DNA of 64,000 bases from Chloracidobacterium sp. N. Its GTDB lineage: Bacteria > Acidobacteriota > Blastocatellia > Chloracidobacteriales > Chloracidobacteriaceae. Shown one piece after another: positions 38,444 through 48,878 of the stretch (within the stretch, counting starts at the first letter, position 1; every line of letters starts with the position of its first letter). The notes under the pieces are model-generated. The model was not told where the DNA came from. It searched no databases and was given only the letters and a program-made list of their open reading frames with translations. The stretch lies in contig NZ_CP072643.1 in the NCBI RefSeq assembly GCF_018304765.1, forward strand, positions 930,001 to 994,000, in the 5' to 3' direction. A program made the position numbers and the translations under genes.

Positions 38444-39864
38444 ACCCAACACCATCTCTTTCCGTGCCTTCGGCCGCCAACTCCGGGCTGTGCCCCGTGG
38501 TGATGAAGTTTGGCGGCACTTCGGTTCAGGACACGGCGGCCTTTGAGCGGGTGGCCGCCATCATTCGTCGGCAGCAGGGACAGCCGCCCCGACAGCAGCC
38601 CGTCGTCGTGGTGTCGGCCATGGCCGGGATGACCGATGCGTTGCTGGATGCCGTCAAGCGTTCCCTGGAACAGGACACGACGGCGGCGCTGGAGTGGCTG
38701 GAACCCCATTTTGCCCGCTACAGCGAGGTGGCCGAACGGCTGACTGATGGCATCGCCTACGGTGCATTCGTCCACGTGCTCTATGCCGCACGCGAACACA
38801 TCGGGCAGGCGTTGGAAGTGATGCGTCGCTATCCGGGCACCATTCCACCGCTGCGCGATGAAGTCGTGGCCTATGGTGAGCATCTTTCCGCCGCGCTGCT
38901 GGCGGCCGTTCTGTCGGGTGACGGCACCGCCTGCCGTACGGTGGATGCCCGCACCTGCATTGTGACGGATGATGTTTACGGGCGGGCGCGCCCGCGCTGG
39001 GATGCGACGCAAACCCACACCCGCCAGGTTTTGGAGCCGCTGCTGGCGGAAGGAGTCATCCCGGTGCTGGGCGGCTTCATCGGCGCGACCTTTGACGGCG
39101 CGACCACGACACTTGGCCGCGGCGGCTCGGATTATTCGGCCACCCTGATTGGCGCAGCACTTCAGGCCTGCGAAGTCCAGATTTGGACGGATGTCGCCGG
39201 CATTTACTCGGCCGATCCACGTCTGGTTGCCCAAGTACGGCGGCTGGACACGCTGGCCTACGGGGAAGCCACCGATCTGGCACTGTACGGAGCGAAAGTG
39301 CTGCATCCACGCACCATCGAGCCGGTCGAGCGGTTGAGCATTCCGGTGAGCATTCGCAACTCGTACGACCCGGAAGCTGGCTACTCGACGATTAGGGCTT
39401 CATCCGGCGCTCCGTCCGGGGCCATTCTGGCCGTCACCCACCGCAACGGTGTGGCGGCCGTTCACGTGCGTCCACGGGGGAGCTGGCGCGCGGCGGTGGC
39501 CCTGGACGAAATGGCCCAGATTCTGGACGCCCACGGCATCCTGGTCGAGCACTTGGCGGCCTCGCGCCTGGGGCTGACGGCCACAGTGGAGGACGGCGAG
39601 GCACTGGAAGCGGCCCGGCGCGACCTTCAGACCTGTGGCGACGTGCAGGTGACGACCGACCGCGCGCTGCTGTGTGTCGTCGGCAACTTCGGAACTGAGG
39701 CCACGGAACTACATCCGGCGCTGAGCGAAATTCTGGCCGAGTTTCGTTCCACGCCGCTGTTGCCCCATCCATCGCCCCACGCGCGTCTGTTTCTTCTGGC
39801 GGAAGCTGCCGCGCCGACGGCCGTCCAGAAGCTGCACGCACAGCTCATTGAAAATCCAGCCTGA
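38440..39864 (+). CDS. lysC: Aspartate kinase (monofunctional)
   Basis: The 474-residue protein has VMKFGGTSVQD, VVVSAMAGMTD, GGFIGAT, LGRGGSDYSA and two C-terminal ACT-like regions. It phosphorylates aspartate, the entry to lysine, threonine and methionine. Translational coupling to metX suggests that methionine supply drives its expression here. No homoserine dehydrogenase domain is attached. Confidence 0.94.
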   Translation: MNPTPSLSVPSAANSGLCPVVMKFGGTSVQDTAAFERVAAIIRRQQGQPPRQQPVVVVSAMAGMTDALLDAVKRSLEQDTTAALEWLEPHFARYSEVAERLTDGIAYGAFVHVLYAAREHIGQALEVMRRYPGTIPPLRDEVVAYGEHLSAALLAAVLSGDGTACRTVDARTCIVTDDVYGRARPRWDATQTHTRQVLEPLLAEGVIPVLGGFIGATFDGATTTLGRGGSDYSATLIGAALQACEVQIWTDVAGIYSADPRLVAQVRRLDTLAYGEATDLALYGAKVLHPRTIEPVERLSIPVSIRNSYDPEAGYSTIRASSGAPSGAILAVTHRNGVAAVHVRPRGSWRAAVALDEMAQILDAHGILVEHLAASRLGLTATVEDGEALEAARRDLQTCGDVQVTTDRALLCVVGNFGTEATELHPALSEILAEFRSTPLLPHPSPHARLFLLAEAAAPTAVQKLHAQLIENPA

Positions 39865-39917
39865 GCGTGTCACCGTTGTCACCCGTGAAACGCCCCAACT
39901 GCCGGAGGTGAGTCGCC

Positions 39918-40649
39918 ATGGCGGAACTTTCCGATGCCAGCCTGCTTGTCCGCTCCTTTATGCGCGCCTACCGCTACACGGTGTCCGTCTGGCAACCGGC
40001 GCGGCTGACCAAGCCGCTGTCCGCCTGCAAGGTCGGCCTGGTGACGACAGCCGCCTTTCACCTGCCCACGCAACCGGCGTTTGATCTCAAGCTGGCCGGC
40101 GATCCGTCCTTTCGCGTCATTCCGACCGACTGTGACCTCACCACGCTCAAGGTCGGACACGTCAGCCCTTCGTTTGACCACACGGGCATCGAGCGGGACC
40201 CGAACCTGGCGCTGCCCATCACCCGTTTTCAGGAACTCGTGGCGGAAGGTGTCGTGGGGGCACTCAACGCGCGGGCCTGGTCATTTTGCGGTTCGATTGC
40301 CAAGCCGGGGGAACTCATTGCCCGTACCGCGCCGGAAGCTGCCGCCCAGTCCCGGGCCGACGGCGTGGAAGTCGCCCTGCTGACCCCGGTCTGACCGATG
40401 TGCAATCAGTCGGTCGGACTGATTCAGGCTGCATTTGAAAACGAAGGCATCGTGACGGTCTCGATTTCGCTGTACCGGTTCGTCACCGAGAAGGTACGTC
40501 CGCCGCGCGCCCTGTGGGTGCCGTTCCCATTGGGGTATCCCCTGGGTGAACCCCACAACCCGGCGCTCCAACGGCGGGTCATCCTGGCGGCGCTGGAGTT
40601 GTTGACCGCCGATGAGCCGTTGCCGCTCATCCGCGACTTTCAACCATGA
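39918..40649 (+). CDS. Selenocysteine-containing GrdB-family (selenoprotein B-like) redox protein, UGA read through
   Basis: Two adjoining frames, 39918-40394 and 40398-40649, are in the same phase and separated only by a TGA at 40392-40394. Read through, they give one 243-residue protein with Sec159-Pro-Met-Cys162, a UxxC redox motif in the context LLTPV-U-PMCNQSVGLIQ. The N-terminal part (FDHTGIERDPNLALPITRF) and this context fit the short glycine/sarcosine/betaine reductase selenoprotein B family, whose members carry Sec or Cys at this position. A SECIS-like hairpin follows. Substrate is unknown. It sits after lysC and overlaps the cruF start (ATGA). Confidence 0.85.
40404..40424 (+). promoter_or_regulatory. 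Bacterial SECIS-like hairpin
   Basis: AATCAGTC pairs perfectly with GACTGATT around the loop GGTCG. The loop starts 17 bases after the UGA codon and has G at its first two positions and a GGTC core like the E. coli fdhF element. Position and shape are as expected for SelB recognition. Confidence 0.75.
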
Positions 40650-41443
40650 CCGATCTGCTGCACCGCCTGGCGGGGACCGTCCTGCTGCGTCCCTACGTCT
40701 TTGTGTTCCTGCTGGCGTACCTGTTTCTGGCTGTGGCGCGGCTGGGCTGGCTGCGTACCCTGGTCTGGACCGTCACGGCCTATCTCATTGCGTGGGCCTG
40801 TGAATGGAGTTCCATTCACAACGGTTTTCCCTTCGGGCGGTACGACTACATTGACCGCACGAGTGACCGCGAACTGTGGGTGGCGGGCGTGCCTTTTTTT
40901 GATTCGCTGTCCTTTGCCTTTCTTTCCTTCATCAGCTTCGAGGCGGCCGTCATCCTGCGCACGCCGTTGACTTCCTGGCATGTGTCGCCCGATGACGCTC
41001 CGGCGCGGCGGTCATGGCTGACGACCGTCTATGCCGGACTGCTGATGATGTTTCTCGATGTGGTGATTGATCCGGTGACGCTCCAGGGCGAACGGTGGTT
41101 TCTGGGGCAAATCTACGGCTATCCACATGGCGGCCCGCACTTTGGCGTGACGATTGAAAACTATGTCGGGTGGTTTGTGGTCAGCGTGCTCATCACCACA
41201 ACCTTTCGCCTGTGGGAAGCGACGCTGCTGCGGGGTGTCGCGCGGACGGGAACCTTTGCCTTTCCGTTCCAGCACGTTGCCCCGCTGGGGGTCTATTTTG
41301 GCATCTTCGCCTTCAACATTGCCGTCACCTTCTGGATTGGCGAGACGACCATGGGCTGGGCCAGCACCTTCATTGCGTTCCTCATCGGCTGGATGTTCGT
41401 TCAGCACGCCCTCTCACCCTACCGAAGCCGGCCCGGTGAATGA
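40646..41443 (+). CDS. cruF: Carotenoid biosynthesis protein of the CruF family (DUF422)
   Basis: The 265-residue membrane protein has seven or so helices with conserved acidic and glycine-rich loops (CEWSSIHNGFPFGRYDY, MMFLDVVIDPV, FGVTIENYVGWF) characteristic of CruF/DUF422. CruF hydrates the 1',2' double bond of an acyclic carotenoid end. This suits a phototroph making 1'-hydroxy carotenoids. It is coupled to the selenoprotein gene by a four-base overlap, but a functional link is not evident. Conversely, some DUF422 proteins have unknown roles. Confidence 0.78.
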   Translation: MTDLLHRLAGTVLLRPYVFVFLLAYLFLAVARLGWLRTLVWTVTAYLIAWACEWSSIHNGFPFGRYDYIDRTSDRELWVAGVPFFDSLSFAFLSFISFEAAVILRTPLTSWHVSPDDAPARRSWLTTVYAGLLMMFLDVVIDPVTLQGERWFLGQIYGYPHGGPHFGVTIENYVGWFVVSVLITTTFRLWEATLLRGVARTGTFAFPFQHVAPLGVYFGIFAFNIAVTFWIGETTMGWASTFIAFLIGWMFVQHALSPYRSRPGE

Positions 41444-44888: not shown

Positions 44889-45044
44889 TTGGTTTCAGGC
44901 TCACCCAGTCCCTCACAGCCTTCCCCCCTCACCTGCCTGCTGGAAGGTGTGCGTCCCCGAATCGCGTGAGTCCCATCCGAGGCGTGTCCTGCCGGGAAAG
45001 TCGGCGGTGCGCTTGCTTTGGGTTTCAGAAGAGCGTTTTCGGGT

Positions 45045-48000
45045 ATGAAGTTTCTTTTCATCGCACTCGATGGACAGGCCGATCTGGCCCTTGCTGTTGC
45101 TGCGGCGCGGGTCCGTGAGCAGCACGGCGTCAATCTCCAGGTGGCCTTTCACATTGCAGCCGAACTTGACCGGGCTGAGGCCATTGAAAAGCTCCGCGCC
45201 GACGCGGCGGAAGCCGACCTGGTGTTTGTCGTCCACCAGTTTGACGACGAAAAAATTGCCCTTATCCGGGAGTTGCTCCACCGCCATGCCGCCCGCTACC
45301 AGGCTGTCATCTGCGTGATGTGCGCGCCGTCGCTGATTCGGGAGACGCGCCTGGGACGCTTCGTGCTGGCCAAAAAGGATGAAGGCGAAACGCCGTGGTA
45401 TTCGCCGCTGCGCATGATCCGGGCCGTCAAGGATTCCTTCAAAAAGGACGACGCCCCGACCGCCGAACCCAAGGCGGCCCAGCCGCCGGGACGCACCATG
45501 CTCACCATGCTCAAGAATGCCGGGAAGATTATGAAGTACATCCCCGGCACGGCGCAGGACATTCACGCCTACATGATGAGCATCCAGTACTGGCTCAACG
45601 CCTCGGCTGACAATCTGGAGCAGTTTCTGCTGTTTTTGCTGACGCGCTACACGGAAGCTTACCGTGGGCGCTTCAACCCGAAGCCGCCGGTTGAATACCC
45701 CGATGTGGGGCTGTTTCACCCCCGTGAAGGGCGCATTGTCGAATCCATCAGGGAACTGCGGACGCACGTCCCGTCGCGGCCGAATGCTCCTACGATTGGC
45801 GTGCTGATGTTGCGGTCCTATCTGCTGTCGGGCAACCGGGCGCACTATGCGGCCGTCATCGAAGCCCTTGAACAGCGTGGCGCGAATGTCATTCCGGCCT
45901 ATGCCTTTGGGTTGGACGGCCGGCCGGCGGTGGAAAAATACTTCCTCGAACGCGGCCGCCCGGTGGTGGATGCCGTGCTGTCACTGACCGGGTTTTCTCT
46001 CGTCGGCGGGCCGGCCTACAACGACGCCCTGGCGGCCGAGCGGCTGCTGAAGCAGCTTGACGTGCCCTACATCTGCGCGCCCTCGCTGGAGTTTCAGACC
46101 ATCGAGGAGTGGCTCTCCGACACTCAGGGACTGAACCGCCTTCAGGCAACGCTGATGGTCTCCATTCCAGAGCTGGACGGGACGACCGATCAGATTGTCT
46201 TTGCCGGCAAGTCCGGGAACTCGCGCCTGCTGGAACCCATCCCGGATCGGGTCGAGCGTCTGGTTGGGCGGGTTATGGCGCGGGTCCGGTTGCGCCGCCT
46301 GCCGCCGGCCAAACGGCGCGTTGCCATCGTGCTGTTCAACTTTCCGCCGAGCCAGGGCAACGTTGGCACGGCGGCCTACCTTGATGTGTGGACAAGCCTG
46401 CACCGCCTGCTCGGCAAAATGCAGCAGGCTGGCTACCACCTCACCGACGTGCCGGCCACGGTGGACGAATTGCGCGACAGCATCGTTCACGGCAATGCCG
46501 TCCAGTACGGCCAGCCGGCCAACGTCTGTGACCTGTTTCCACGGCTGGAATACGAGCGGCTCGTGCCGATCTACCGCGAAATCGAGCGGTCGTGGGGACC
46601 CTCGCCAGGTGAAAAGAACGTCTATGGCGGCGACTTCGCCATCATGGGACGGGTGTTTGGCAACGTCGGGGTGTTTGTCCAGCCGAGTTTTGGCTTCGAG
46701 GATGACCCGATGCGCCTGCTGTTTTCGGAGGACGCCACGCCCAACCACGGTTTTACCGCCTTTTATGCGTATCTCAACCGGACGTGGGGGGCGGATGTGC
46801 TGCTCCACTTCGGAACGCACGGGGCGACGGAGTTCATGCCCGGCAAGCAGGTTGGGTTGAGCCAGTTCTGCTGGAGCGACCGGCTCATTGGCGACCAGCC
46901 CAACGTCTATGCCTACTGCGCCAACAACCCGTCGGAGGGTCTCATTGCGAAGCGCCGGGGCTACGCGATGCTGGTGAGCTACCTCAGCCCGCCCATCGAG
47001 GCGGCCGGTCTCTACAAGGAATTCGTGACGCTCAAGGAAACCATGGACGGTTTCCGCAATGAACCGACCCGGCGCGAAGCCTACATCCCGGCCATCGTCG
47101 AAAAGGCCAAAGAACTCAACCTGCTCGACCACGACTTCACCCCCGACGAACTGACGACCGAGCGCTTCCAGAAGCTTTATGCCGACCTGCTGGAACTGGA
47201 ATACAGCCTCATTCCGACGGGGCTGCACACGATGGATGACGGCCTCGACAGCCAGGAACTCGTCGGGATGCTGCGCGTCGTGGCGGATTTTCCGGTTGCG
47301 GGGCAGCACCTGCCAAGCCTGACCAAAACCGTCCTGGCCCACTGGGCCGATCTGAACGGGAAGTCCGCCGCCGGAAAGACCGGGACGGACGATGCGCTGG
47401 CGACCTTTTCACAAAACGTTGAGCTGGAGCGGCAGGCGCGGCATTTCATCGGCGAGGCCATTCTGGAAATGCACCAGAAGCGTTCGGCCAGCGCCGGGGC
47501 GAGCCACCTGGCCAAACTCTGCCGCGCCAGGCGGAGTCTCTTTGACGCACACTTTGCGTTTCTGTTTGACCTGCACGAAAAACTCCGCACCAACGCCGAA
47601 CTCGATGCCATTCTGCGGGCCCTGGACGGGCGCTACATTGCGCCGGTGGCGGGCGGGGATGTCGTGCGTGATCCCAGCATTCTTCCGACCGGGCGCAACC
47701 TGCATGCCATTGACCCGTACCGCATGCCGACCTATGCCGCAACGCGCGAAGCCCAGAAGTCCGTGGAGCAGCTTCTTGAGCGGTATGCGCGGGAGCACGG
47801 CGGCGCACTGCCGCGCAGCGTGGCGCTCGTGCTGTGGGGCACCGACAACCTGAAAAGTGGCGGCGTGGGCGTGGCCCAGGCCCTGTGGCTGCTGGGGGCG
47901 CGGGCCGTGGCCGACGAGATGGGACGCATTGCCAACGTCGAACTCCTCCCGCTGGCCGAGTTGGGACGGCCCCGGATTGATGTGGTGCTGACGCTGTCCG

Positions 48001-48878
48001 GCATCTTCCGGGATGTCCTGCCGCAGCAGATGCGGCTGCTTGACCGTGCCGTGCGCCTGGCGGCCCAGGCGGATGAGCCGGAGGCGCAAAACTTCATCCG
48101 CGCCCACGTGCAGGAAATGCTGCGGCAGGGCGTGGCCTGGGAAGATGCCGTCCGGCGGATTTTCTCGAATGCCGCCGGCAGCTACGGGGCCAATGTCAAC
48201 CATCTGGTGGATTCGTCCACGTGGGAAAACGACGGTGAAATTGCCCAGACGTTCCTTTCACGCAAGGGCTTTGCCTACGACCCGAACGGGCAGTTTGTCG
48301 AGGCCCGGGCCGACTACGAACGGGTTCTGGGGGGCGTCACGCTGGCGTTTCAGAACGTGGATTCCACTGAAATGAACATCACCGATATTGACCACTACTA
48401 CGAGTACCTGGGCGGTGTCACCAGCGCCGTCAAGCACCTGCGGGGCGATGGTGCCGCGCCGGCCGTGATGCTGGCTGATGCGACCGGAGCCGAAGCCAAG
48501 GTGCGCAGTCTCGAAGAAACGGTCCGGCTCGAATCCCGCACCAAGCTGCTCAATCCCAAGTGGTACGAAGCCATGCTGGAGAACGGCTACGCCGGTGTGA
48601 GCCAGATCGAACGGCAGGTTTCCAACACTTTTGGCTGGAGCGCGACCTGCCAGGCCGTGGATGACTGGGTGTATGACGGCGTGGCGCAGACCTACGTGCT
48701 TGACGAAGCCATGCGTGCGCGGTTGCAGCGCCTCAACCCCAGCAGTCTGTCGAAGTTGACCCGCCGGCTGCTCGAAGCCCATGGGCGGGGGCTGTGGAAA
48801 ACAGACGAGGCGACGCTTGAACAGTTGCGTGAAGCCTACGCCCAGATGGAAGACGCACTGGAAAACGTGACTTTGTGA
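45045..48878 (+). CDS. bchH: Magnesium chelatase subunit H (protoporphyrin IX)
   Basis: The 1277-residue length and sequence fit BchH. The family core segments HFGTHGATEFMPGKQVG, GDQPNVYAYCANNPSEG and DVVLTLSGIFRDVLPQQ are present. It binds protoporphyrin IX and, with the ATPase subunits BchI and BchD (not in this window), inserts magnesium, committing it to bacteriochlorophyll. The start at 45045 matches the conserved beginning. It opens a plus-strand run ending at 56859. Confidence 0.96.
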   Translation: MKFLFIALDGQADLALAVAAARVREQHGVNLQVAFHIAAELDRAEAIEKLRADAAEADLVFVVHQFDDEKIALIRELLHRHAARYQAVICVMCAPSLIRETRLGRFVLAKKDEGETPWYSPLRMIRAVKDSFKKDDAPTAEPKAAQPPGRTMLTMLKNAGKIMKYIPGTAQDIHAYMMSIQYWLNASADNLEQFLLFLLTRYTEAYRGRFNPKPPVEYPDVGLFHPREGRIVESIRELRTHVPSRPNAPTIGVLMLRSYLLSGNRAHYAAVIEALEQRGANVIPAYAFGLDGRPAVEKYFLERGRPVVDAVLSLTGFSLVGGPAYNDALAAERLLKQLDVPYICAPSLEFQTIEEWLSDTQGLNRLQATLMVSIPELDGTTDQIVFAGKSGNSRLLEPIPDRVERLVGRVMARVRLRRLPPAKRRVAIVLFNFPPSQGNVGTAAYLDVWTSLHRLLGKMQQAGYHLTDVPATVDELRDSIVHGNAVQYGQPANVCDLFPRLEYERLVPIYREIERSWGPSPGEKNVYGGDFAIMGRVFGNVGVFVQPSFGFEDDPMRLLFSEDATPNHGFTAFYAYLNRTWGADVLLHFGTHGATEFMPGKQVGLSQFCWSDRLIGDQPNVYAYCANNPSEGLIAKRRGYAMLVSYLSPPIEAAGLYKEFVTLKETMDGFRNEPTRREAYIPAIVEKAKELNLLDHDFTPDELTTERFQKLYADLLELEYSLIPTGLHTMDDGLDSQELVGMLRVVADFPVAGQHLPSLTKTVLAHWADLNGKSAAGKTGTDDALATFSQNVELERQARHFIGEAILEMHQKRSASAGASHLAKLCRARRSLFDAHFAFLFDLHEKLRTNAELDAILRALDGRYIAPVAGGDVVRDPSILPTGRNLHAIDPYRMPTYAATREAQKSVEQLLERYAREHGGALPRSVALVLWGTDNLKSGGVGVAQALWLLGARAVADEMGRIANVELLPLAELGRPRIDVVLTLSGIFRDVLPQQMRLLDRAVRLAAQADEPEAQNFIRAHVQEMLRQGVAWEDAVRRIFSNAAGSYGANVNHLVDSSTWENDGEIAQTFLSRKGFAYDPNGQFVEARADYERVLGGVTLAFQNVDSTEMNITDIDHYYEYLGGVTSAVKHLRGDGAAPAVMLADATGAEAKVRSLEETVRLESRTKLLNPKWYEAMLENGYAGVSQIERQVSNTFGWSATCQAVDDWVYDGVAQTYVLDEAMRARLQRLNPSSLSKLTRRLLEAHGRGLWKTDEATLEQLREAYAQMEDALENVTL

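Follow-up and report, generated by a model that had tools for sequence, protein, structure and literature searches.

A PrdB-like gene with a predicted selenocysteine codon and a stand-alone setting in Chloracidobacterium sp. N

Does the UGA at 40392 separate two genes, or would it be read as selenocysteine (Sec) within a single one, and what kind of protein would then be made? The window that we analysed is a 64-kb stretch (bases 930001-994000) of the smaller of the two contigs (2.64 and 1.08 Mb) that make up this 3.7-Mb genome. A preliminary description, made from the letters of this DNA, had read the locus as a GrdB-like selenoprotein gene coupled to the carotenoid gene cruF and hidden by standard annotation. 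Here we examine the reading frame, the hairpin that follows the UGA, the protein family and the gene neighbourhood, whose features are collected in Table 1.

Table 1. Coordinates in the window of the features of the PrdB-like locus
Feature	Coordinates	Strand	Remarks
Shine-Dalgarno-like GGAGGTGA	39904..39911	+	script scan; 6 nt ahead of ATG 39918
PrdB-like predicted selenoprotein gene	39918..40649	+	243 residues, Sec159, stop TGA 40647-40649; TIGR04483 3.3e-35
In-frame UGA, predicted Sec159	40392..40394	+	TGA in 88/88 distinct homologues (including the best 80 of 90 relatives)
TGC, Cys162, second residue of UxxC	40401..40403	+	Cys codon in 88/88 distinct homologues
Putative SECIS-type hairpin, 8-bp stem and 5-nt loop GGUCG	40404..40424	+	fold, synonymous conservation, covariation
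CruF-like carotenoid biosynthesis gene (PF04240)	40646..41443	+	overlaps selenoprotein stop by ATGA

Reading frame and conservation of the UGA codon

The TGA at codon 159 is the sole interruption of the frame 39918-40649, and both of its flanks lie in a single phase, as the preliminary description had stated. Its expectation that standard annotation would split the gene was also borne out, since ORF calling with table 11 produced two ORFs of 158 and 83 aa. The predicted Sec lies in the protein context LLTPV-U-PMC, and the frame shows the feature that characterizes selenoprotein genes, an in-frame UGA with both sides belonging to one protein. Selection acts on both sides of the codon, with a dN/dS of 0.057 downstream of the UGA compared to 0.101 upstream (21 pairs within the genus). 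Sequence comparison makes us nearly certain that 39918-40649 is one complete gene whose UGA would encode Sec, and selenium is presumably inserted at this codon through SelB binding.

Conservation of the UGA was followed through several sets of genomes. A homologue was found in 29 of the 39 genomes searched, the own genome included. All seven genomes of the genus (again with the own one) contained exactly one in-frame TGA at the same site, and so did each of nine further homologues of 49-58% identity. A genome-collection search matched 131 stretches, giving 90 relatives of which the best 80 were kept, and TGA occupied the Sec site in all 80 of these loci. After removal of 8 duplicates from 96 rows, 88 distinct homologues were available, including the best 80 of the 90 relatives; every one of them had TGA at the Sec site and Cys at position 162, encoded by TGC in 69 and by TGT in 19. 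Their records are labelled Acidobacteriota or Poribacteria, apart from one bin each under the names Latescibacterota, Rubrobacter, actinobacterium and Brocadia. The PrdB-like group is thus widespread, with a predicted Sec in each of these 88 sequences.

The alignment of homologues proposed in the preliminary description, which looked for Cys at the Sec position, gave another result than the one foreseen: none of the 88 distinct close homologues had Cys there. In the search of the same class, 38 places matched, 30 of which became loci and were aligned; 22 of them have Sec at this position, 7 have Ser and one has Cys, so that the non-Sec versions mostly carry Ser. No Cys version was present among the best 80 of the 90 collection relatives either, and one of the two patterns used in that search asks for Cys at this site, which suggests that such versions could have surfaced.

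Several variants of the motif were observed in these searches. In family f4, seven homologues (L039-L042, L044, L047 and L048) carry Ser where Sec would stand (PASRLC); they retain the second Cys, and no stop interrupts their frame. A second PrdB-like group (L045, L046 and L050) displays the motif GGUPxVCHRT with a spacing one residue longer; L043, of this second group, has Cys in place of Sec. One relative, L038 (1501-2112; G017:C91:14962-15573), carries two in-frame TGAs in the context CPA-U-PI-U-HQ (UxxU), and it was the sole two-TGA relative among the matches in the 28 genomes searched around it. Its UxxU may represent a genuine diselenide-type motif or result from an error in sequencing.

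The downstream hairpin and the selenocysteine machinery

The perfect 8-bp hairpin with a GGTC-type loop that had been described 9 bases 3′ of the UGA is indeed present. Its stem pairs 40404-40411 with 40417-40424 around the loop GGUCG (40412-40416), and the distance from the UGA to the loop is 17 nt. A guanosine in a small apical loop is given as a mark of bacterial SECIS elements in the accessible part of PMC1088965, and a hairpin just past the UGA with a G in its small apical loop is what we found at 40404-40424. Perfect stems of at least 8 bp (loop of 3-8) located 6-20 nt downstream are infrequent in the window, following 5 of the 947 TGAs of the plus strand (0.5%, UGA 40392 included). The folding energy of the hairpin was unremarkable (z = -1.38, with 23 of 200 shuffles equal or better), and three of the 18 loci L021-L038 had another MFE structure, namely L023 inside the genus and L032 and L038 outside it. 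The case for the hairpin rests on conservation of the TGA, conservation at synonymous sites and covariation.

Synonymous codon change at unchanged residues, compared across the genus genomes, was lowest over the region of the UGA and hairpin. The mean codon difference was 0.085 in codons 161-170 versus 0.407 over the 177 informative codons, codons 161-168 were identical in all seven genomes, and the conservation of codons 160-172 reached p = 0.0002 by resampling. When 185 sliding windows of 13 codons were ranked, the lowest started at codons 157 and 158. As the hairpin lies in coding DNA, part of its conservation is conservation of the protein, a point that the synonymous test deals with.

A first covariation analysis comprised 17 sequences (15 distinct). 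The larger set of 89 sequences (75 distinct) was made of 9 of those 17 together with the best 80 of the 90 collection relatives; of the 8 omitted, 7 were present under other locus ids, and L022 is identical to L021 over the stretch compared. In the 75 distinct sequences, 88.0% of hairpin cells were paired; pairing fell to 11.5-50.8% when the register was shifted by 1-3 columns. Cells changed on both sides numbered 46 compared to 15.5 in shuffles, involving 4 of the 8 pairs, and the covariation score was reached by none of 500 shuffles. Two of the five structure measures fell within the shuffle range (pairs with change on both sides, 453/500; pair types, 120/500), and the outermost pair (columns 13-33) was broken in 55 of the 75 sequences. 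All 89 sequences had the same G and U in the loop (columns 22-23).

A covariance model of the hairpin recovered the site 40404-40424 in the own genome at E 1.4e-11, the next match having an E of 1.34 (150 of 1696 first-look candidates scored); this model is tied to the PrdB-like family and leaves room for further selenoproteins in the genome. An Rfam scan of 39800-40800 produced no family above cut-off and one chance-level match (E 2.1).

The preliminary description had made the Sec reading depend on the presence of selA, selB, selC and selD, and all four were detected in the own genome. Scores were 503.5 bits for selA (cut-off 267.9), 355.6 bits for selB (cut-off 242.25), whose product has SelB winged-helix and beta-barrel domains, 386.6 bits for selD (cut-off 125) and 62.4 bits for tRNA-Sec (cut-off 47), which ARAGORN also called as tRNA-SeC with anticodon UCA. 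A second tRNA-Sec match above the cut-off (47.8 bits) was discarded as a tRNA-Leu. With selA present in 38 of the 39 genomes, the own one included, this gene is uninformative as a negative control. No SelW/T/H protein was detected in the own genome with TIGR02174.

Two other readings of the UGA have to be weighed at this point. If the locus consisted of two separate genes, the first would end at the UGA (40394) and the second would start at the ATG at 40398; these are exactly the two ORFs that standard calling yields, and 62 of the 88 distinct homologues have ATG as codon 161. However, among the same 88, which include the best 80 of the 90 relatives, codon 161 is not ATG, GTG or TTG in 21 sequences that still keep the TGA, and 14 have no start codon there even when CTG is allowed, Thr, Phe, Ile or other residues being found instead. 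The similarity to PrdB crosses the junction, the synonymous conservation over the hairpin would be left unexplained by two genes, and no Shine-Dalgarno match precedes 40398, though several other genes of the window also lack one. A sequencing error or a recent pseudogene, on the other hand, had no observation in its favour and would have to account for a TGA that recurs at this site in all 88 distinct homologues (including the best 80 of 90), from records labelled with several phyla, and for the low dN/dS downstream of it. Both readings are very unlikely; we give the two-gene arrangement hardly any weight and an error or pseudogene still less.

The best reading is a single Sec-containing protein. 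In the proposed mechanism, ribosomes would initiate at 39918, SelB on the hairpin would deliver Sec-tRNA(Sec) at UGA 40392, and translation would then continue to the TGA at 40647. In the accessible text of PMC4376005, selenium does not figure in the trace-element stock for C. thermophilum, so that either traces of it are enough or cultures can do without the product.

Protein family, model and partner subunits

The preliminary description had called the protein GrdB-like. The kind was recognized correctly, as a GrdB/PrdB-type protein with UxxC, whereas the nearest family turned out to be PrdB rather than GrdB. The match to TIGR04483 (PrdB; 121.6 bits, 3.3e-35) aligned residues 23-230 to positions 18-219 of the 238 in the profile and spanned the junction, remaining below the cut-off of 300. 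The score against Pfam GRDB (PF07355) was 17.9 bits, under the cut-off of 22, and that against TIGR01918 (3.1e-06, profile 269-423 of 431) was also below cut-off.

Similarity to PrdB thus extends over most of the length and includes the UxxC motif, whose first residue is Sec in clostridial PrdB (PMC13188914, accessible part); in contrast to PrdB, the Chloracidobacterium protein scores far below the equivalog cut-off, and the PF09338 partner was not found in its genome. Likewise, it aligns to the C-terminal part of GrdB (PF07355, TIGR01918), but differs from it in length (244 versus 431 positions), in falling below the cut-offs and in that GrdA was not found in the genome. By their accessible descriptions (PMC1088965, PMC2398784), the selenoproteins labelled PrdB in the Sargasso Sea and GOS ocean metagenomes are likewise UxxC proteins of PrdB type.

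The partner subunits were searched for across the genomes. PF09338, which we take to be the pyruvoyl subunit family, was not found in any of the seven genomes of the genus, nor in 37 of the 39 genomes in all; the same search was positive in G016 and G028. A first GrdA search gave no match in 11 genomes nor in the controls, and it was rerun with G016 and G028 included; the rerun found GrdA in both of these and not in the own genome. D-proline and glycine reductases need a pyruvoyl subunit, and because partner subunits of the PF09338 and GrdA types were not found, the selenoprotein should not reduce proline or glycine.

G016 and G028, two relatives of the same class, contain glycine-reductase-type genes (G016:C1, G016:C47 and G028:C53; L049, L068-L071, L152 and L153), a set comprising PF09338 subunits, GrdA with one TGA and a GrdB-like gene with a TGA.

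An AlphaFold model built from 15 sequences with Cys in place of Sec was alpha/beta and had a mean pLDDT of 90.0 and a pTM of 0.90. It placed Sec159-Cys162 (U-P-M-C) between a beta strand (152-156) and a helix (162-175), and such strand-to-helix junctions often harbour a reactive thiol or selenol. A sequence search of the PDB with the family profile returned nothing at E <= 1, and Foldseek gave no PDB match at E <= 0.001, the best being 0.014. The best Z scores from a second look with VIA-align, 8.4 for microcystinase C and 8.2 for a LacI-type regulator, barely exceeded background, and no fold was assigned.

The UxxC motif and the partner subunits not found lead us to favour, by a modest margin over doubt, a product acting as a stand-alone PrdB-like selenol/thiol oxidoreductase, with Sec and Cys as its probable redox pair. 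The selenolate would attack the substrate, a selenenylsulfide would form between Sec159 and Cys162, and a thioredoxin-type system would presumably re-reduce it. As a guess, the substrate might be of the thiol/disulfide or peroxide type, the host being microaerophilic. Taken as one statement weighted to its tested parts, a single 243-residue Sec protein that is a stand-alone PrdB-like oxidoreductase is, on the sequence evidence, a reading in which we have good confidence.

The predicted protein adds to a PrdB-type selenoprotein family that was known before, and does so in a stand-alone setting. In the accessible parts of the literature, PrdB figures among the bacterial selenoprotein families, with the motif UxxC (PMC13188914, PMC9312934); selenoproteins of PrdB type had been published by 2005 at the latest, and PrdB-labelled sequences were abundant in the metagenomes of the Sargasso Sea and GOS (42 and 235, respectively; PMC1088965, PMC2398784). 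Acidobacteria are credited with four selenoproteins in three families (PMC1794560, accessible part). A term search of the main text of PMC8245765 and PMC4376005 found no words beginning with seleno- or selenium, and a search of titles and abstract openings, which left subscription papers mostly outside, returned no report on Chloracidobacterium selenoproteins. C. thermophilum is described in the accessible part of PMC4376005 as a light- and oxygen-dependent microaerophile, and the present gene places predicted Sec decoding in a microaerophilic chlorophototroph, a light-harvesting acidobacterium. Most of the genomes tested yielded no partners for proline or glycine reduction (37 of 39 without PF09338), and automatic annotation may split such UGA-containing genes.

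The CruF-like neighbour and the gene context

Upstream of the selenoprotein gene lie genes for a Cys/Met-metabolism PLP enzyme, MetX and aspartate kinase, and downstream lies the CruF-like gene. The label of this neighbour comes from Pfam Caroten_synth (PF04240; 70.4 bits, cut-off 25), and the CruF equivalog cut-offs were not reached (NF045693, 39.1 of 400; TIGR03460, 32.4 of 154.7; NF041333, 21.4 of 300), so that the designation CruF is weak. The coupling to cruF put forward in the preliminary description held within Chloracidobacterium, where the two genes are adjacent, with the ATGA overlap, in all seven genomes (own included); it did not extend to the 11 loci of other genera, in whose stretches around the homologue no CruF-like gene was detected. 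At L053 the pair is kept together in a 16-kb stretch that holds no other gene of the compared window segment. The 11 other-genus loci contained few other window genes, namely a short-chain dehydrogenase of about 28% identity (L057, L060 and L064) and a sensor-kinase-type gene (L061), both of which are common gene kinds.

Two alternative roles can be set against the stand-alone oxidoreductase. Membership of a true D-proline reductase (PrdB with PrdA) or of a glycine/betaine/sarcosine reductase (GrdB) would agree with PrdB being the best-matching family, aligned from position 18 to 219 of the 238 in its profile, and with the common UxxC motif (PMC13188914, accessible part); the score of 121.6 bits against a cut-off of 300, the PF09338 search in the seven genus genomes and the GrdA search all speak against it, and we judge it highly improbable. 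A selenoprotein dedicated to carotenoid synthesis as partner of the CruF-like protein deserves slightly more credit and is still improbable: the adjacency with ATGA overlap in the seven Chloracidobacterium genomes, L053 included, is in its favour, whereas no CruF-like gene was detected around the 11 homologues of other genera, and 6 of these loci share a different downstream gene (family 1).

A link at the level of translation in Chloracidobacterium, in which selenium supply would gate the CruF-like gene, is a little less remote than a carotenoid role, though we doubt it. For ribosomes coming from upstream, the ATGA overlap lies beyond the UGA and can be reached only if this codon is decoded as Sec, and translation of the CruF-like gene would for this reason drop without selenium. 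Six of the 7 genus genomes have no Shine-Dalgarno match ahead of its start, and L023 has a partial 5-base one. However, other gene starts examined in the window also lack a match, including that of ask (taken at its listed start), which has the same type of overlap, and the selenoprotein start itself has none in one of the 7 genus loci (L026); this speaks against giving special weight to the missing match of the CruF-like gene.

Close to the selenoprotein gene, at window positions 45018-48878, lies the gene for a 1286-aa protein of the CobN/magnesium chelatase family with a DUF3479 domain, possibly BchH.
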